Source: Haloprofundus salinisoli
Lineage (GTDB): Archaea > Halobacteriota > Halobacteria > Halobacteriales > Haloferacaceae
Direction: 5' to 3'
Length of the DNA: 64,000 bases
Assembly (NCBI RefSeq): GCF_020097815.1
Contig: NZ_CP083663.1
Coordinates: forward strand, 558,001-622,000
Shown: positions 8,158 through 19,526 of the stretch, in pieces
Position numbering within the stretch: the first letter of the stretch is position 1
Layout of the letters: every line of letters begins with the position of its first letter
Position numbers and translations under genes: made by a program
The notes under the pieces: model-generated
Database searches by the model: none
What the model was told of the DNA's origin: nothing
Seen by the model: only the letters and a program-made list of their open reading frames with translations

Positions 8158-10401
8158 ATGAACGACCGCCACACAGCCGACGACCGAACTGACAATCACA
8201 CCGGTCACGAGGAACACGACTCGATGGCCAACCATCACAAAACCGACCGGGGTGATGACTCGGAGGAATCGCGAACGGAGCAGTCGCTCCTTGAGACTGA
8301 AGCGGACGCCACTGGTGCTGCGGAACACGTTAAACAGAAGGAGGGGAAGCACAATCACAGCAACTCCCATGGTGATCATGGCGGGATGCACGAGGGTCAC
8401 GAACAAATGTTCCGACGGCGCTTTTTCGTCTCGACACTCCTCTCCATTCCGGTCCTCCTCTACAGCGAGATGCTTCAGGAGTGGCTCGGGTTTTCGGTGC
8501 CTGCGTTCCCTGGTAGTGAGTGGATCAACCCGGTTTTCGCGGTAATCGTCTTTGCCTACGGTGGGGTTCCGTTCCTGAAGATGGCCGCCCCGGAACTCCG
8601 GAATTACTCGCCTGGAATGATGACGCTCATCTCCATGGCGATCACCGTCGCGTTCGTCTACAGCTTAGCGAGCGTGATCTTTCCGACGACGTCGGCGTTC
8701 TTCTGGGAACTCGTGACGCTCATCGATATCATGCTGTTGGGCCACTGGATCGAGATGCGTAGTGTCCGCCGGGCCTCTAGCGCGCTCGACGAACTCGCCA
8801 AGTTGGTTCCAGACACCGCCGAACGCATCATCGACAACGGTGAGACCGAAGAAGTGCCCGTCAGAGACCTCGAAGAGGGAGATCTCGTTCTCGTACGGCC
8901 CGGTGCGAGCGTGCCCGCAGACGGCGTCGTCGAGGAGGGCGACTCCGACGTGAACGAGGCGATGATCACCGGCGAGTCCAGAGCCGTCTCGAAGGAGCCT
9001 GGTGACGAAGTCATCGGCGGGACTATCAACGGCGACGGGAGCCTTCGTATCCGTATCAGCGCGACAGGCGAGGAGACGACACTAGCGGGAATCATGCGAC
9101 TCGTCGAAGAGGCTCAGCAGAGCAAGTCGAAGACGCAGGCGCTCGCGGACCGCGCGGCGGGGTGGCTCTTCTACGTCGCCGTTGCGTCAGCCGTACTTAC
9201 CGCCATCGCGTGGACGATTGCGACCTCCTTCGGTGCGCCCGTCATCGAGCGCGTGGTGACTGTGCTGGTAATCGCCTGTCCCCATGCGCTCGGACTTGCA
9301 ATCCCGTTGGTAGTCGCTATCAACACGTCGTTGGCAGCTCGAAACGGGATGCTCGTTCGGGACCGCATCGCAATGGAGCGAGCACGAGAACTCGACACAA
9401 TCATCTTCGACAAAACCGGGACCCTCACAGAAGGTGAACAGGGCGTCGTCGATGTTGCGACAGCGAGCGACGTCACCGGAGAGGAAGCCCTCGCGTTCGC
9501 TGCCGCCGTCGAGAGTGACTCGGAGCACATGATCGCGGAAGCGATCCGCGAGGCAGCCGACGAACGCGGTGTTACGATTCCGAAAGCATCGAACTTCGAG
9601 GCGCTCAAAGGGCGCGGCGTGCGAGCGACCGTGAACGGCGAGACGGTGTACGCCGGGGGACCGAACCTCCTCTCACACCTCGACAGCGATGTACCGGACG
9701 AGCTCACCATGTTCGCCGACCAAGCCGGTGAGAACGCACAGACTGTCGTGTATCTCGTTCGTGACGACGAGCCGGTGGCCGCCTTCGCGCTCGCAGATGT
9801 CATCCGCGAGGAGAGTTATCAGGTCGTGGACGCGCTTCACGACCTCGACATCGAGGTCGCGATGTTGACCGGTGACTCGGCGGACGTCGCTCACGCGGTT
9901 GCTGACGAGCTCGGAATCGATACAGTGTTCGCCGAAGTCCTCCCGGAGGACAAGGACAAGAAGGTTCGTGAACTCCAGGACCAAGGCAAACTCGTGGCCA
10001 TGGTCGGAGACGGGGTGAATGACGCCCCCGCACTCACGCGATCCGACATCGGTATCGCCATCGGGAGTGGTACAGACGTCGCCGTCCAGTCCGCAGACAT
10101 CATCCTCGTACAGAACAACCCACTCGACGTTGTCCGGCTCGTCAAACTGAGCAAGGCGAGTTACCGGAAGATGCAGGAGAACCTCGTCTGGGCCGCCGGC
10201 TACAACGTCTTCGCCATTCCGCTCGCTGCGGGCGTTCTTGCACCGATTGGAATCCTCCTTTCGCCTGCCGTCGGGGCACTCCTTATGTCACTCAGTACGG
10301 TCATCGTTGCCATCAACGCACAGTTCCTCCGTCGCGTCGATCTGGACCTTCCATCCCTTCCTGGAGTCTCTTCATCGGGTAGTCTTCAACCAGCGGACTG
10401 A
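8158..10401 (+). CDS. copB: CopB-type P1B copper-transporting ATPase
   Basis: 747 residues. The N-terminal ~80 residues are His-rich ([20 protein letters not shown]) and lack a CxxC heavy-metal domain. The membrane metal motif is C374-P375-H376, typical of the CPH (P1B-3, CopB) subgroup rather than CPC. The phosphorylation site is DKTGT (D418), the TGE-type loop is ITGESRAV, and the hinge is GDGVND (near 617-622). In the nucleotide domain the usual HP dipeptide reads SEHMIAEA. The enzyme should export copper from the cytosol using ATP; CPH pumps are linked to Cu(II) or Cu(I) export. It follows the membrane-tailed SDR by 10 bp and closes the copper/redox run that begins with the copper-storage gene. 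Confidence 0.92.
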
Positions 10402-13117: not shown

Positions 13118-13471
13118 TCAGAGCCAGTCGTCGCCCCACTCGTCTAATACGTCGAAGACGGGACAGAGCGCACTGCCTTTCTCAGTCAGGCTGTAATAGC
13201 TTGCGACCGGCGATTCGAACTCCTTTCGGTTCTCGATGAATCCCTCCTCCTCCAAGTCGTCAAGCACGCGCGAGAGCGTGTACGAACTCGCGCTTGTCGA
13301 TCGCTTGAGCTCGTTGAACCGCTTTTCGTCGTCTCGCAGATCGTTGAGGATGATGAGCTTCCACTTCGACCCGATCTCCTCAATCGACCCCACGACATTG
13401 CAAACATCTGCATTCCGTTGCTCGATTTCCGATTCTGTATCTGATTCAGACGTCGGTGGTTGGGTCGCCAT
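13118..13471 (-). CDS. HxlR/DUF24-family redox-type regulator (intact copy)
   Basis: 117 residues. After a polar N-tail, an N-terminal cysteine (C24, in ADVCNVVGSIEEIGSKWKLI) sits just ahead of the first helix of the winged helix, as in the thiol-sensing YodB, CatR and HypR proteins. HTH residues are KRFNELKRSTSASSYTLSRV and the wing contains SPVASYYSLTEKG. It likely represses the divergent SDR-DoxX genes by binding the 62-bp space between them, which contains inverted arms and one TATA element. The ATG is at 13471. A truncated near-identical copy lies at 14904-15121 and a more distant paralogue at 19188-19526. Confidence 0.85.
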   Translation of the reverse strand: MATQPPTSESDTESEIEQRNADVCNVVGSIEEIGSKWKLIILNDLRDDEKRFNELKRSTSASSYTLSRVLDDLEEEGFIENRKEFESPVASYYSLTEKGSALCPVFDVLDEWGDDWL

Positions 13472-13533
13472 TACTTGGTTACACTATTGTTGCCTGAAGT
13501 ATATATAGGTTTGGGAGACAACTAGGTAATGTA
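13472..13533. promoter_or_regulatory. Shared divergent promoter/operator between HxlR and SDR
   Basis: A palindromic TATATATA near 13500-13507 lies about 27 bp ahead of the SDR ATG (13534) and about 30 bp ahead of the HxlR ATG (13471), so one box could serve both directions. It is flanked by roughly inverted arms: TTACACTATTGTTG (13479-13492) and CAACTAGGTAATGTAA (13519-13534). These are the best candidates for the regulator's binding sites. The same block is preserved almost base for base at 15122-15183. Confidence 0.6.
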
Positions 13534-14235
13534 ATGGAACTACAAAACTCGACGGTGCTTGTGACCGGTGCGACCGGCAACCTAGGCCCGTACGTGACGG
13601 ACCAGCTCGTTGACCAAGGTGCCGAAGTGATCGGCACTTACGTCACGGAAACCGAGGGAGACAATGTCGAAACCCGCGCTGAGTACGCCGACGCGGTGTC
13701 ATACCACCAAGTCGATCTCACCGACCAGCCGGCGGTTGAGGCCTTCGCTGAGACCATCACCGAGGAGCACGACTCGGTCGATCACATCGTCGGCCTCGCT
13801 GGCGGGTTCTCGATGGGCGGCATCAGTGAAACCGATGGAGATGCGTTCGAAACTGCGCTCAATCGCCACGCGACGACGGCGTTCCTGACTGTCAAGGCGT
13901 TCGCGGACCAGCTCGATGAACACAGTGGTATTGTGCTGTTCAGCTCTGACCGGGCGATTGATCCGGTGCCGGGCACGCTGGCCTACAACGTGGGTAAGGG
14001 TGCAGTCCGGACGTTGACCGAGTCGCTCGACGTCGAACTCGATGCTCGTGTTAACGCGATTGCCCCGTTCCTCATCGACGTGCCGGGGAACCGCGAGGCG
14101 ATGCCCGACGCCGACTTCTCCGAGTGTACGGCCCCTGCGGCGGTCGTCGATGAAGTGGTCAACCTGCTCTCGAACGAGGGTGTGACGGGCCAGATCATCC
14201 AGATGACTGGGGGTCAGCCGGAGGTGGAGGAATAA
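13534..14235 (+). CDS. Short-chain dehydrogenase (classical SDR)
   Basis: 233 residues. The Rossmann motif is LVTGATGNLG, and the catalytic pattern is S (LFSSDR), Y and K (LAYNVGKGAV). A C-terminal SDR block, VTGQIIQMTGGQ, is also present. NAD(P)-linked; substrate unknown, though context with HxlR, DoxX and VOC genes suggests carbonyl or quinone detoxification. The start is leaderless, about 27 bp from the shared TATA box. The stop overlaps the DoxX ATG by one base (taATG). Two 12-bp direct repeats inside the gene (13594-13605 and 14182-14193, GTGACGGNCCAG) are 588 bp apart; the damaged second copy lacks exactly this interval. Confidence 0.88.
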   Translation: MELQNSTVLVTGATGNLGPYVTDQLVDQGAEVIGTYVTETEGDNVETRAEYADAVSYHQVDLTDQPAVEAFAETITEEHDSVDHIVGLAGGFSMGGISETDGDAFETALNRHATTAFLTVKAFADQLDEHSGIVLFSSDRAIDPVPGTLAYNVGKGAVRTLTESLDVELDARVNAIAPFLIDVPGNREAMPDADFSECTAPAAVVDEVVNLLSNEGVTGQIIQMTGGQPEVEE

Positions 14236-14726
14236 TGGCTCAGACCGAATCACGTCAACTGTCGTCCGAGACGACTGCGCGGTGGGGCCCGACCCTCGTT
14301 CGACTCGCCCTTGGGATTCCGATGCTAATCGCAGGCGTCGGCAAAGTCTTCGGAGTCGGACCGAAACCGATGGGTATCTCGGGCTTCGCAGGGTTCTTGG
14401 CGAGCCTTGGCGTTCCATTTCCCACAATTGCTGCGTGGGGAGTCGGTCTGGTCGAACTTGTCGGCGGCATCTTGTTGCTAGTCGGCTTGGCCGTTCGACT
14501 CACAAGCGCGGTGATCGCCATCGACATGCTCGTCGCTACTGTCCTGTACCACCTTCCCAATGGGTATCCGGTCACGAGTAACGGGATCGAATTGACGCTC
14601 ACACTAACCCTGATCGCAGTAGCGCTCGTCCTAAGCGGCCCTGGAGCGTTCTCGATCCAGCATGCACTGTTCGACCAAGAGGACCGCTCCACTGACTCGT
14701 CTCAGTCGAGGGGCATAGACGGATAA
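14235..14726 (+). CDS. DoxX-family membrane protein, first copy
   Basis: 163 residues with four predicted helices: LVRLALGIPMLIAGVGKVFG, TIAAWGVGLVELVGGILLLV, SAVIAIDMLVATVLYHLP and LTLTLTLIAVALVLSG. This is the DoxX fold, with the conserved 'GVGKxF' first helix and the E in the second. DoxX/CatD-type proteins sit in redox and electrophile-stress operons and are thought to act with quinone- or thiol-reactive enzymes in the membrane. It shares one base with the SDR stop codon. It is only distantly similar to the second DoxX gene at 15297, although the surrounding HxlR and SDR copies are close. Confidence 0.85.
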   Translation: MAQTESRQLSSETTARWGPTLVRLALGIPMLIAGVGKVFGVGPKPMGISGFAGFLASLGVPFPTIAAWGVGLVELVGGILLLVGLAVRLTSAVIAIDMLVATVLYHLPNGYPVTSNGIELTLTLTLIAVALVLSGPGAFSIQHALFDQEDRSTDSSQSRGIDG

Positions 14727-14762
14727 GCAGCGCTCGCGTTTATTTTGACAGCCTCAAGGAAA

Positions 14763-14903
14763 GTAGACGAAACGCCTCTCCTCGCCCTCAAGGAGGATGC
14801 AGACGCCCTCGCACGCCATGGGTCGGGCACCGGGTTCTACCACAATGCATTCAGAGTGCCCTCACGTGATACGCTCGGTGACGCGCTCGGTCGGATACGA
14901 GAA
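14763..14903 (+). pseudogene. Fragment of a VOC (CatE-like) gene
   Basis: About 47 codons matching residues 57-101 of the intact VOC protein at 15724-16584: VDETPLLALKEDADALARHG, then SGTGFYHNAFRVPSR and LGDALGRIR. The DNA is nearly identical over the second half. At about 14903 the match stops and the next bases match the HxlR gene in reverse orientation. There is no start codon in a sensible place and no metal-site domain. It is the leftover of the VOC gene that once followed the first DoxX gene. Confidence 0.8.
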
Positions 14904-15121
14904 CAGTCGTCAAGCACACGCAAGAGGGTGTAGGAGCTAGCCCCTGTCGAGCGCGTGAGTTCGTTGAACCGCTTCTCACTGTCACGCAAACCATTGAGAA
15001 CAATGAGGTTCCACTTCACCCCCATCTCCTTGACAGCCCCGATGACGTTACAGATGTTTGCATTTCGCCATTTGACCTCGGTGTCTTCGTTAGCCTCTGT
15101 CGGGGGTGGTTGGGTCGCCAT
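14904..15121 (-). pseudogene. 3'-truncated HxlR regulator copy
   Basis: From the ATG at 15121 the protein follows the intact HxlR: MATQPPPTEANEDTEVKWRN, NICNVIGAVKEMGVKWNLIV, then the HTH through SSYTLLRVLDD. It keeps the sensor cysteine but loses the wing and dimerisation helix. At about 14904 the frame runs into the VOC fragment's antisense. It could still bind DNA weakly but probably is a dead copy. Confidence 0.85.
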
Positions 15122-15183
15122 TCCTTGGTTACACTATTGTTGCCTGAAGTATATATAGGTTTGAGAGCCAACTAGGTAATGTA
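15122..15183. promoter_or_regulatory. Copy of the divergent HxlR/SDR promoter
   Basis: Same layout as 13472-13533, with only a few base changes: TTGGTTACACTATTGTTGCC, then TATATATAGG, then CAACTAGGTAATGTAATGG. It now drives the second DoxX-VOC pair through the shrunken SDR remnant. Its strong conservation, next to damaged genes on both sides, suggests it is still in use. Confidence 0.6.
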
Positions 15184-15297
15184 ATGGAACTACAAAATTC
15201 GACGGTGCTTGTGACCGGTGCGACCGGTAACATGGCCCTGCACGTGACAGACCAGATTATCCAGATGACTGGCGGTCAGCCGGAGGTGGAGGAATAA
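15184..15297 (+). pseudogene. SDR remnant with exact in-frame internal deletion (37 codons left)
   Basis: Reads MELQNSTVLVTGATGNMALH, VTDQ, then IIQMTGGQPEVEE and stop. The first 24 residues match the start of the SDR at 13534 and the last 13 match its end. In the intact gene, the join corresponds to recombination between two 12-bp direct repeats 588 bp (196 codons) apart, and 233 minus 196 is 37. The frame is intact, so the one-base stop/start overlap with DoxX (taATG at 15297) is kept. The product cannot be an enzyme; it may survive as a translated leader peptide. Confidence 0.88.
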
Positions 15298-15713
15298 TGG
15301 CTCTGGAGACTGCCGGTGGTGGGCTGGCCTTCTTGGTTGGCCGCCTCATCTTTGGTGCGGTGCTCGGGTTCATGGGGCTGAACCACTTCATCGGGCTGGA
15401 GGGAATGAGTGGCTACGCTGCGTCAAAGGGTATCCCCGCCCCCCGGCTGTCCGTTGCGGGGTCCGGCCTCATACTCGTGGTGGGCGGGCTCGCCATCATC
15501 CTCGGAGTGTACCCACTCATCGGCGCGGCGGCCCTCATCCTATTCTTCCTGGGCGTAACGCCGGTCATGCACGACTTCTGGAACGCGCCCGAGGAGGAGG
15601 TCCAGTCCGAGATGACGAACTTCCTGAAGAACGCTGCGCTCTTCGGAGCCGCGCTCGTATTCGTGTCGCTTAGTGGAACCGACTGGCCCTACGCACTCAA
15701 CATCGGACTCTAA
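15297..15713 (+). CDS. DoxX-family membrane protein, second copy (CatD-like)
   Basis: 138 residues with four helices: LAFLVGRLIFGAVLGFMGLN, LSVAGSGLILVVGGLAIILG, LIGAAALILFFLGVTPVMHD and a last one near residues 110-128. The GLNHF and HDFW elements are typical of the short DoxX subgroup that includes Bacillus CatD. It overlaps the SDR remnant's stop by one base and is followed, after a good Shine-Dalgarno, by a VOC gene of CatE size. The DoxX-VOC pair under an HxlR-type promoter is the same order as catD-catE in Bacillus, where it protects against catechol and quinones. The role here is inferred from that parallel. Confidence 0.85.
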   Translation: MALETAGGGLAFLVGRLIFGAVLGFMGLNHFIGLEGMSGYAASKGIPAPRLSVAGSGLILVVGGLAIILGVYPLIGAAALILFFLGVTPVMHDFWNAPEEEVQSEMTNFLKNAALFGAALVFVSLSGTDWPYALNIGL

Positions 15714-15723
15714 GGAGGCACAG

Positions 15724-16584
15724 ATGACCACGCAAGCGAATTCAGAGAATTCAGATGCACTCCCGGAAGGAACCCGTATCGGTCGGACTGCCCTTCGGGT
15801 CGCCGACATGGAGGAGATGACCGGATTCTACCGGGATGTCGTCGGCCTCAGTGTGCTCCATACAGCCGACACGACCGCCGTTCTCGGGGTTGACGATACG
15901 TCACTGCTCGTCCTGGAGGAAGAGCAAGATGCCCTGAAGCGTCACCGATCGGGCACCGGGCTCTACCACAATGCATTCAGAGTGCCCTCACGTGAGGCGC
16001 TCGGTGACGCGCTCGGTCGGATACGAGACCACTGGCAGCTCGGGGGAGCTTCTGACCATGGCGTCAGCGAGGCGCTGTATCTCACAGACCCCGAGGGGAA
16101 CGGCGTTGAGATCTACCGCGACTTCCCACGCGACGAGTGGTCCATCGACGACGATGGGAGGATCAGAATCGGCTCCGAACGCCTCGATCTCGACAGGATC
16201 GAATCCGCTGGTAGTGGTAGAGCTCGGGCACCGCCGGGCACAGACGTCGGCCACGTCCATCTCGAAGTCTCCTCGATTGACGCATTCAGGGACTTCTACG
16301 TAGACACTCTCGGATTCGAGGTGAAAGCAACCTGGCCAGACGCACACTTCGTATCTGCCGGAGGGTACCACCATCACATCGGGGCGAACACATGGCACCA
16401 TCGTACAAACCCGAGCAATGGCCGAGGATTAGCCTGGTTTGAGGTGGTCCTCCCGGGGACAGAAACGCTCGACGCACTTCGAGATCGACTCGCTGGGAGC
16501 GAATCCACCGTGACTGAAACGGATGAGGGGATCGTAGTCAGGGATGCAGACGATATCGAGATTCGATTCCGAGTCGAGACCTAA
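15724..16584 (+). CDS. Two-domain VOC protein (CatE-like extradiol dioxygenase/glyoxalase)
   Basis: 286 residues from the ATG at 15724, chosen over an upstream ATG at 15673 because AGGAGG (15713-15718) lies five bases ahead. Two vicinal-oxygen-chelate modules are visible: residues ~20-133 and ~174-284. Likely metal ligands in the second are H177 (VGHVHLE), H216-H218 (GGYHHHIGANTW) and E279 (DIEIRF). Length and two-domain build match Bacillus CatE (YfiE), a catechol 2,3-dioxygenase-like enzyme of about 285 residues. Reaction unproven. It starts 10 bp after the DoxX stop and is clearly in the same unit. A fragment of a second copy lies at 14763-14903. Confidence 0.87.
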   Translation: MTTQANSENSDALPEGTRIGRTALRVADMEEMTGFYRDVVGLSVLHTADTTAVLGVDDTSLLVLEEEQDALKRHRSGTGLYHNAFRVPSREALGDALGRIRDHWQLGGASDHGVSEALYLTDPEGNGVEIYRDFPRDEWSIDDDGRIRIGSERLDLDRIESAGSGRARAPPGTDVGHVHLEVSSIDAFRDFYVDTLGFEVKATWPDAHFVSAGGYHHHIGANTWHHRTNPSNGRGLAWFEVVLPGTETLDALRDRLAGSESTVTETDEGIVVRDADDIEIRFRVET

Positions 16585-16712: not shown

Positions 16713-17135
16713 ATGGAGTCGATCCCCTCTGATTTCGAAGACCTCTTTGAGAGGCCGTCATACGGCGTCCTTGCGACCCTGCTCCCCAACGGCATCCCTC
16801 ACCAAACCGTCGTCTGGGTCGATTATGACGGCGAACACGTCCGCATCAACACGGCTCGTGGACGCCGAAAGGTAGCTAACATACAGCAAGATCCCCGCAT
16901 TGCGTTGTGTGTGATCGACCCCGATGTCCCGTATCGCTACCTTTCGCTCCATGGTGAGGTGACAGCCGTCACCGAGGAAGGGGCGATGGACCACATCGAC
17001 GCTCTCGGCCAGCGGTACCAAAACGTCGAGAGCTGGTCGGATCGGTACGACGACGACGTTGTCAGAGTGATACTCGAGATCGAACCAGAAGGCGTGTTCA
17101 CCCGCGAGCCGTACGGCATCGAGCAGGAGGAGTAA
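16713..17135 (+). CDS. Pyridoxamine-phosphate-oxidase-like flavin/F420 protein
   Basis: 140 residues from the ATG at 16713 (MESIPSDFEDLFERPSYGVL). An upstream in-frame ATG at 16680 would give an unlikely 11-residue extension. It is a split-barrel fold: LATLLPNGIPHQTVVWVDYD, then VRINTARGRRKVANIQQDPR and LSLHGEVTAV. The 'RxRKVANIQQDPR' stretch resembles F420-binding PPOX families (TIGR03618-like). Such proteins reduce quinones, biliverdin or other electrophiles with F420H2 or flavin, which fits the neighbouring detoxification genes. Cofactor is inferred. It begins 129 bp after the VOC gene. Confidence 0.83.
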   Translation: MESIPSDFEDLFERPSYGVLATLLPNGIPHQTVVWVDYDGEHVRINTARGRRKVANIQQDPRIALCVIDPDVPYRYLSLHGEVTAVTEEGAMDHIDALGQRYQNVESWSDRYDDDVVRVILEIEPEGVFTREPYGIEQEE

Positions 17136-17256: not shown

Positions 17257-18363
17257 TCAGGCGTCTCCCACGCGCAGAACGGGTTTGATCGCCTCACCGT
17301 TCTCTGAATCTTCAACGGCCTGTTGGATGTCCTCGAAGTCGTAGTAGGTGATGAGTTCGTCGAACGGGAATTTCCCTTGTCGATACAGCTCGATCAGGTC
17401 GGGGATGAACTGCTGGGGGTCAGAATCACCTTGAACGATACCGGTGATGCTCCGCCCGCCCAAGATGTGGTCGTTCACGTCGTAACTGGCCCTCGTCCCA
17501 AGCGACGGGGCGCCAATGATGCCGAGTTCCCCGAACTGTGTGAGGGTATCGGTTGCCTGTTCAGCGACATCTGGCACGCCAGTCGTCTCCAGTGCGTAGT
17601 CAACACCCCCTGTGAGTTCCTGAATCTTGTCAACTACGTCGTCTACCTCCTTTGGGTTCACGGTCTCCGTAGCACCGATTTCCAACGCCTTCTCTAAGCG
17701 GCTCGCTTGGAGGTCGACGGAAATAATGTCGGTACATCCTTTGAGGTTAGCTGCCATGACGGCGGCTAAGCCGACGCCACCCGCACCAAAGATAGCGATC
17801 GATGAACCTGCTTGCGCGTTCAACACGTTGATGACGGCACCGGCTCCCGTCTGGATGCCACACCCGAGAGGGCCAAGCATCTCGAGCGGCACGTCGTCTC
17901 CGACGGGGACGGCGTTTCGTTCAGATGCAATCGCGTACGTGGCGAACGACGATTGACCGAAGAAGCGGCCACTTATCTCTTCCCCGTCGAGTGAGATCGG
18001 TGATGATCCGTCCTCCGGTCTGACGCCCCCGAAGCAATAGTCGAAAGCCCGCTCACAATATGCTGGGTGGCCATCTCGACATGGTGTGCAGGTGTCGTCG
18101 TAGTCGAAGCTCATGACCACGTGATCACCAGGCTCAACGTTGGTCACGTCCTCACCAACCTCCTCGACGACTCCAGCACCCTCGTGCCCAAGCACTGCCG
18201 GCAAGGGAGTCGGATACATCTGGTCCCGTACGATTAAATCAGTGTGGCAGATACCGACACCGACCACATGGACCAGAACCTCGTCGTTGCGTGGTTCGTC
18301 TAGTTCGACTTGTTGGATTTAGAACGGTGCTCCCTCCTCCTTTGTAATGGCTGCCTCTATTTG
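17257..18363 (-). pseudogene. Zinc alcohol dehydrogenase with premature stop
   Basis: The open frame from a GTG at 18267 gives 336 residues. These include the catalytic-zinc region GICHTD and GHEGAGVV, the structural-zinc cysteine loop (DTCTPCRDGHPAYCERAFDY) and the Rossmann motif FGAGGVGLAA. Family members carry about 30 more residues ahead. They can be read in the same frame upstream: IQIEAAITKEGAPF, then a TAA stop (18319-18321), then IQQVELDEPRNDEVLVHVVG. The expected start codon position (18363) reads ATA, not ATG. The native N-terminal beta strands are therefore cut off by a nonsense codon and a lost start. A shortened protein from the GTG is possible but would lack part of the catalytic fold. 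Substrate class: primary or benzylic alcohols. Confidence 0.7.
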
Positions 18364-18423: not shown

Positions 18424-19053
18424 TTAGTAGCCGACGGCGAGCTGGGTGTGAATCTCGTCGCTGTTTTCGAGTTCGTCAACGAAGGCGACAGCGAAGTCCT
18501 CCATTGAAATGTAACTTTCTCCGTCCTCGCTGGCGACGAGTTGTCCTTCCGCCGTTCGGTACTCGCCCGTCCGCTCCCCTGGCTCAATCTGTGCCGGCGG
18601 TGCGATATACGACCACTGGAGGTCATCAACTTCGCGGATGACTTCCCAGGCGTCGATGTGTGCCTCCGCCAGCGGCACAAGTTCGTCCGGGAACTCATCG
18701 GTTTCGACGACCTGTGTGTCCGGGCCGACGTTCAGACCGCCCGCACCGCCCGTCCAGACGAACCGATCAACGTCTGTCTGTCGGAGTCCCTCAATAAGTG
18801 CCTCCGCCATTTCAGGAACGATTTCGACGCCTTCCCCTCCAGATGGGCCGAGCGCCGATGCGACGGCATCGTGGCCCTCAGCGAGTTCCGCAATCTTAGC
18901 AGGGTCGGTCGCATCGCCAGCGACCGCCTTGAAGTCCGCGTCGTCGATTTCACCGCTTCGGGAGACGCCAGTCACCTCGTGGCCGCGTTCGAGGAGTTCG
19001 TTTGCAATTCGTTGCCCGATTCGACCGCTCGCACCGAGTAGTAGTACGTTCAT
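18424..19053 (-). CDS. NAD(P)-binding oxidoreductase (atypical SDR, YwnB-like)
   Basis: 209 residues from the ATG at 19053 (MNVLLLGASGRIGQRIANEL); an upstream ATG would add 21 polar residues that do not fit the family. The N-terminal GASGRIG is the atypical SDR dinucleotide motif. The rest (VWTGGAGGLNVG; YIAPPAQIEPGERTGEYRTA) fits the NmrA/YwnB group, whose members bind NAD(P)H and act as reductases or redox sensors. It is divergent from the HxlR-type gene at 19188 with 134 bp between them, the usual layout for a regulator and its target. Confidence 0.85.
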   Translation of the reverse strand: MNVLLLGASGRIGQRIANELLERGHEVTGVSRSGEIDDADFKAVAGDATDPAKIAELAEGHDAVASALGPSGGEGVEIVPEMAEALIEGLRQTDVDRFVWTGGAGGLNVGPDTQVVETDEFPDELVPLAEAHIDAWEVIREVDDLQWSYIAPPAQIEPGERTGEYRTAEGQLVASEDGESYISMEDFAVAFVDELENSDEIHTQLAVGY

Positions 19054-19187
19054 TGGGTTGTGTGGATTGTTAGTAGTCGTCTGGCAATTCGTGACGGGTA
19101 CCGCAGCCTCGGTCACACCTTCACACTTGGTATTAGAGCGTGACCTTGATAAGGTTCAGCCAACAGAGGTATGACCAGGTCACATCA

Positions 19188-19526
19188 ATGTCATCGGACT
19201 CCTCCCTCGAAGCAAAATACGATAGCTGCCCCGTACTCAGGACCCTCGAAGAAGTCGGCTCTCGGTGGCGAATGTCCGTCATACACGTCCTCCGAGAGGG
19301 AGATCTCCGATTTAACGAGATCAAGCGAGCGACAGATGCGAACTCACAAACCTTGTCTCGCGTACTGGACGATCTCGAAGAGAAAGAATACGTTGAACGT
19401 CGGGTGGAAGAAGAAAGTCCAGTCGCGGTGTATTATTCGTTGACGACAAAGGGTGAAGATCTTCTCTCTGCGTTCGACGAAATTTATGAGTGGGGTGAAA
19501 AATGGCTTGACAGCCAGAGTGAGTAA
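19188..19526 (+). CDS. HxlR/DUF24-family regulator, second type
   Basis: 112 residues from the ATG at 19188; the 16-residue extension to 19140 is not protein-like. A CPV motif (YDSCPVLRTLEEVGSRWRMS) precedes the winged helix, as in classical HxlR proteins; this Cys is the redox sensor in YodB-like members. The HTH is DLRFNEIKRATDANSQTLSR and the wing is SPVAVYYSLTTKG. It probably controls the divergent YwnB-like gene. It is a paralogue of the regulator at 13118-13471, not a recent copy. Confidence 0.87.
   Translation: MSSDSSLEAKYDSCPVLRTLEEVGSRWRMSVIHVLREGDLRFNEIKRATDANSQTLSRVLDDLEEKEYVERRVEEESPVAVYYSLTTKGEDLLSAFDEIYEWGEKWLDSQSE

Follow-up and report, generated by a model that had tools for sequence, protein, structure and literature searches.

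Electrophile sensing by HxlR/DUF24-family regulators and detoxification by CatE-type enzymes are already known in Firmicutes. CatD and CatE are both required for catechol resistance in Bacillus subtilis (PMC6212828), and quinones are sensed by YodB via Cys6 together with C-terminal cysteines and by QsrR via Cys5 (PMC6798810). In pneumococcus, CatE and YwnB belong to one quinone-responsive regulon, and the Fe(II) catechol 2,3-dioxygenase activity of CatE and the quinone reductase activity of YwnB have been measured (PMC9218516). A full-text literature search found no paper joining haloarchaea with HxlR and DoxX, or DoxX with VOC and HxlR. Comparative sequence analysis of a 64,000-nucleotide stretch of Haloprofundus salinisoli DNA (hereafter, the window) makes it probable, in our moderately confident estimate, that haloarchaea carry a variant of the known bacterial system, a thiol-switched catechol/quinone detoxification cassette composed of an HxlR gene and the divergent genes (SDR)-DoxX-VOC.

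An earlier note on this DNA had drawn attention to a DoxX gene (138 aa) followed on the same strand by a gene for a two-domain VOC protein (286 aa), and open reading frames and Pfam profiles agree in upholding this pair. The DoxX score of 42.9 bits stands against a cut-off of 23.6, two Glyoxalase stretches give the VOC protein 72.6 bits, the DoxX gene lies directly upstream of the VOC gene with a 10 bp gap, and AAGGAGG immediately precedes the VOC ATG. Repeat analysis revealed that the pair is part of a larger structure, in which 13118-16584 comprises two tandem copies of one cassette, HxlR divergent from SDR-DoxX-VOC, that have undergone complementary, partial decay (Table 1). Copy A (13118-14905) has kept HxlR, SDR and DoxX, with the SDR stop overlapped by the DoxXa start, and retains a 143-bp scrap of VOC; copy B has kept DoxX and VOC, its HxlR gene is cut off, and its SDR gene has been reduced by an in-frame internal deletion to a remnant between promoter and DoxX gene, the stop of which overlaps the DoxXb start (TAATG).

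Table 1. Features of the tandem cassette locus and its neighbours (positions in the window)
Feature	Position	Strand	Evidence
HxlRa, intact HxlR/DUF24 regulator, 117 aa, Cys24 and Cys103	13118-13471	-	Pfam HxlR 71.7 bits
Copy A divergent promoter/operator (putative), 62 bp	13472-13533	.	Spacer conservation across 12 cassettes
SDR oxidoreductase, intact, 233 aa	13534-14235	+	adh_short_C2 92.5 bits
DoxXa, 163 aa, HvfX/MhqP-like DoxX	14235-14726	+	DoxX 70.3 bits
VOC remnant of copy A, ~codons 51-103	14763-14905	+	Repeat D2, 83% to 15889-16031
HxlRb pseudogene, first ~72 codons only	14905-15121	-	Repeat D1, 78%; HxlR 20.1 bits, below cut-off
Copy B promoter/operator (putative), 62 bp, retained	15122-15183	.	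59/62 identical to copy A
SDR remnant, 37 codons, in-frame internal deletion	15184-15297	+	Repeat D3
DoxXb, 138 aa, membrane DoxX-family protein	15297-15713	+	DoxX 42.9 bits, HR_lesion 32.1 bits
CatE-type two-domain VOC ring-cleavage dioxygenase (predicted), 286 aa	15724-16584	+	CatE reciprocal best match, invariant residues
F420-dependent PPOX-class oxidoreductase, neighbour	16713-17135	+	TIGR03618 104.2 bits, cut-off 79.05
YwnB-like NAD(P)H-binding protein, neighbour	18424-19056	-	Best B. spizizenii match E 6.5e-29
HxlRc, second intact HxlR regulator, divergent from the YwnB-like gene	19188-19526	+	HxlR 75.8 bits

The proposed likeness of the VOC protein to CatE is borne out by a reciprocal best match with Bacillus spizizenii CatE (43% identity, E 1.1e-59, the next Bacillus match being at E 0.023; in the reverse search, the best CatE match in the window genome is this protein, E 6.5e-59) and by common candidate catalytic residues (H82, Y119, E129, H177 and H216-H218). 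The CatE query served solely as bait for finding Bacillus loci; all comparisons use the retrieved sequences, among which the nearest share 91-95% identity with the bait. The protein has two VOC domains and the His/Tyr/Glu set conserved in CatE, and H82, Y119, E129, H177, H179 and H216-218 show little or no variation across haloarchaeal and Firmicute CatE rows. A glyoxalase or thiol-transferase acting on dicarbonyls or other electrophiles, rather than a ring-cleaving dioxygenase, could be imagined from the similar domain pairing of the fused VOC proteins maize glyoxalase I and GLOD4; this reading appears quite improbable given the reciprocal match and the His/Tyr/Glu set, and a check for closer similarity to unrelated glyoxalases left CatE far ahead, with other Bacillus VOC proteins scoring E 0.02 or worse. 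With the VOC sequence alone as query, phmmer returned just one weak PDB match, and a profile was required; in the profile alignment, H82 and E129 of the N-domain match the C-domain region of homoprotocatechuate 2,3-dioxygenase in which its metal ligands His214 and Glu267 are located. Judged by its distance from the following FY motif, H177 would correspond to the first His ligand in BphC. Both the activity of the VOC protein as an Fe(II) catechol-cleaving dioxygenase and its substrate are predicted.

The predicted structure (pLDDT 91.5) is closest to 1zsw, the PcpA hydroquinone dioxygenase (4huz) and the B. subtilis putative dioxygenase 3oaj (Z 21-23), and its domain pairing appears to resemble theirs rather than that of BphC; comparison of this predicted model with canonical type I extradiol enzymes (BphC/C23O) gave a full-length TM of ~0.32-0.36. 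The fold being equally near PcpA, a chlorohydroquinone 1,2-dioxygenase, and SDR, ADH-like and PPOX genes lying nearby, the protein might alternatively function in catabolism, as a ring-cleaving or hydroquinone dioxygenase that supports growth on aromatics, with HxlR sensing a metabolite instead of electrophile stress. We consider this unlikely, though worth keeping in mind: no downstream meta-cleavage genes were seen to belong to the conserved cassette, the HxlR cysteine is invariant, and the CatE relatives of known role serve detoxification (PMC6212828, PMC9218516). Nor did the genes inspected around the pair include any of a meta-cleavage pathway.

The surrounding genes had been interpreted in the earlier note as an SDR/PPOX/YwnB-like detoxification island. 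The genes are present and the YwnB similarity is real, but PPOX, ADH and the YwnB-like gene are not conserved with the cassette: the wider PPOX-ADH-YwnB island was looked for in the cassettes found via SDR and did not recur there. The best B. spizizenii match of the YwnB-like protein adjoins an Rrf2 gene and urease, neighbours that presumably identify it as ywnB. By analogy, the pairing of CatE with YwnB in pneumococcus supports a detoxification setting here.

Assignment of the membrane component is less specific. Sequence comparison did not place DoxXb closest to CatD, and orthology to CatD was not supported, since DoxXb has no clear preference between CatD (BLAST E 8e-4, phmmer 2e-5) and the MhqP-like DoxX L121 (7e-5 and 1e-4, respectively); the latter is also the closest Bacillus DoxX of DoxXa. 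Thus, the likeness to catD-catE claimed at the outset persists in DoxX-VOC order, CatE size and HxlR/DUF24 regulator class, and does not extend to a CatD-specific DoxX.

Two further loci of the same genome contain related genes. A second operon with HxlR divergent from DoxX-VOC (L213 861-2933; C1:176.9-178.9 kb) encodes a VOC protein of one domain only (161 aa) together with a flavin reductase, and its HxlR also has an N-terminal Cys. On C2 (L142 1900-6169), a full-length VOC paralogue (17320-18165, 72% identical) is divergent from a 1030-aa response-regulator/PAS/GAF/BAT/HTH_10 regulator, not from HxlR.

The 62-bp spacer of the cassette shows strong conservation. Across 12 cassettes found via SDR, not via the spacer, mean spacer identity is 89% vs. 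60% at four-fold degenerate SDR sites and exceeds four-fold-site identity in all 66 of the 66 cassette pairs, which places the spacer under strong constraint. It contains one TATATATA, ~30 nt from both start codons; judging by what is generally known of haloarchaeal promoters, transcription would be leaderless in both directions. A search for an operator palindrome gave nothing beyond chance, since the top inverted repeats of the spacer consensus do not surpass those of shuffled sequences, and it did not locate the operator. Searched for across 391 genomes of the class, the spacer turned up in 30, which represent 18 of the 86 genera.

The two spacers of the window differ at 3 of 62 bases, whereas the HxlR copies are only ~72% identical over the remaining part. 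This disparity bears on whether copy B is a decaying, unregulated relic whose DoxXb-VOC genes depend on readthrough from copy A or show scarcely any expression, its spacer merely reflecting recent duplication. Such a relic would fit the broken HxlRb and SDR genes of copy B and the presence of a paralogous full-length VOC elsewhere in the genome; we nevertheless regard it as improbable, given that the spacers have stayed nearly identical beside diverged HxlR copies, that DoxXb and VOC are intact, and that locus L148 of another genus has also kept promoter, in-frame SDR remnant and DoxXb-VOC. There, HxlR-SDR-DoxXa is followed by a retained spacer and an SDR remnant open in frame (together 8994-9230) and then by DoxXb-VOC, the second HxlR being gone. 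Other SDR remnants stand behind HxlR and spacer at L193, L194 and L195. The recurrence of this promoter-sparing decay, in cases that may share an origin, argues that the second promoter is in use.

The regulatory anatomy is where the earlier note went wrong, its enzyme call being real and sensible. It had placed the pair under an HxlR-type divergent promoter; the promoter is retained, and the conservation of HxlR and its spacer beside these genes in many genomes makes HxlR control plausible, but the adjacent HxlR is truncated. The ORF directly upstream of the pair (14837-15121) resembles HxlR only over its first ~72 codons, the remainder being antisense of the VOC fragment; its Pfam match (20.1 bits vs. 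a cut-off of 20.8) covers positions 2-34 of 91, and homology stops abruptly at 14905. This ORF, ending in antisense VOC sequence, is therefore a pseudogene. With the intact HxlRa 1.8 kb upstream and no intact HxlR directly beside the pair, the likely controller of the copy B promoter is HxlRa of copy A acting in trans, and it would probably control both promoters.

Retention of an N-terminal Cys at the sensor position, also proposed, was confirmed (C24 in HxlRa, C14 in HxlRc), and among 28 cassette HxlR proteins Cys24 is present in 28 and Cys103 in 25. Since six of nine Bacillus HxlR proteins have an N-terminal Cys as well, however, it is not diagnostic of CatR or YodB. Orthology of HxlRa to these two was rejected: its top Bacillus matches are two other HxlR proteins (3e-18 and 7e-17), followed by YodB (E 1e-16) and CatR (E 2e-15), and the likeness would thus be one of mechanism. 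The best Bacillus match of HxlRc is YodB (E 2e-21).

A search with SDR over 119 genomes of the family yielded 15 places, among them the window, spread over 13 genomes. In each of the 15 cassettes HxlR is divergent, the distance being 61-62 bp in nearly every case, and the VOC gene is complete in 13; two markedly dissimilar DoxX proteins alternate in the DoxX slot, the type varying even among cassettes with VOC 86-90% identical to that of the window. The loci fetched via the spacer include layouts with and without SDR, with and without DoxX, with VOC alone and with DoxX alone. At L191, L196, L202 and L203, HxlR is divergent from a lone DoxX with the spacer motif shared and no SDR or VOC nearby.

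Copies of the cassette occur on plasmids of Natrinema and Haladaptatus, and the VOC genes of L012 and L190, from genomes of two different families, are separated by zero branch length, pointing to a very recent transfer; together, these observations suggest that the cassette moves. Going further, we tentatively entertain, as a possibility that falls somewhat short of an even expectation, a mobile and modular haloarchaeal quinone/catechol defence cassette with a thiol-switched HxlR on a short bidirectional promoter, whose tandem copies merge and lose genes, leaving a single regulator to serve two promoters, and whose DoxX types are exchanged among near-identical cassettes.

In the probable detoxification cassette outlined above, the VOC protein would act as a CatE-family Fe(II) extradiol dioxygenase opening catechols or quinone-derived adducts, DoxX would be its membrane partner, and SDR may serve to reduce intermediates of quinone or aldehyde type. 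HxlR would repress the common 62-bp divergent promoter and release it upon alkylation or oxidation of Cys24 by quinones. In the window, copy A would provide the regulator, SDR and one DoxX, and copy B would add the dioxygenase, a further DoxX and a second promoter of the HxlR type. Repression, thiol switch, induction and regulation in trans are what we infer for this scheme. With its compact 62-bp spacer, a conserved cassette of this kind in archaea would make the thiol-switch model testable there, and would point to a function for haloarchaeal genes that carry no annotation beyond 'VOC', 'DoxX' or 'helix-turn-helix'.

Overall, one of the closest described systems is catDE of the B. subtilis group (CatD DoxX and CatE catechol 2,3-dioxygenase under CatR/YodB control), which is alike in DoxX-VOC order, CatE size, conserved catalytic residues, reciprocal best match and regulator of the HxlR/DUF24 class. 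The present cassette differs in being archaeal, in often having SDR first in the operon, in a divergent and adjacent regulator (an HxlR gene adjoining catDE was not found in the B. subtilis-group loci), in a DoxX that is not CatD-specific and, at this locus, in duplication and partial decay. In loci of Bacillus haynesii and Rossellomorea marisflavi, a divergent HxlR adjoins DoxX-CatE as in the haloarchaeal cassette, although these are bacterial, have no SDR between regulator and DoxX, and their CatE is only ~35-40% identical. The SifR regulon of Streptococcus pneumoniae combines CatE and YwnB under a single-Cys quinone sensor (PMC9218516); unlike HxlR here, SifR belongs to the Rrf2 family, and the pneumococcal genes are scattered. 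Finally, two-domain ring-cleaving dioxygenases of the MhqO/PcpA type share the overall domain pairing of the predicted VOC model at low sequence identity (11-16%), but differ from the CatE family, whose conserved residues fall within the later half of the N-domain and the earlier half of the C-domain.
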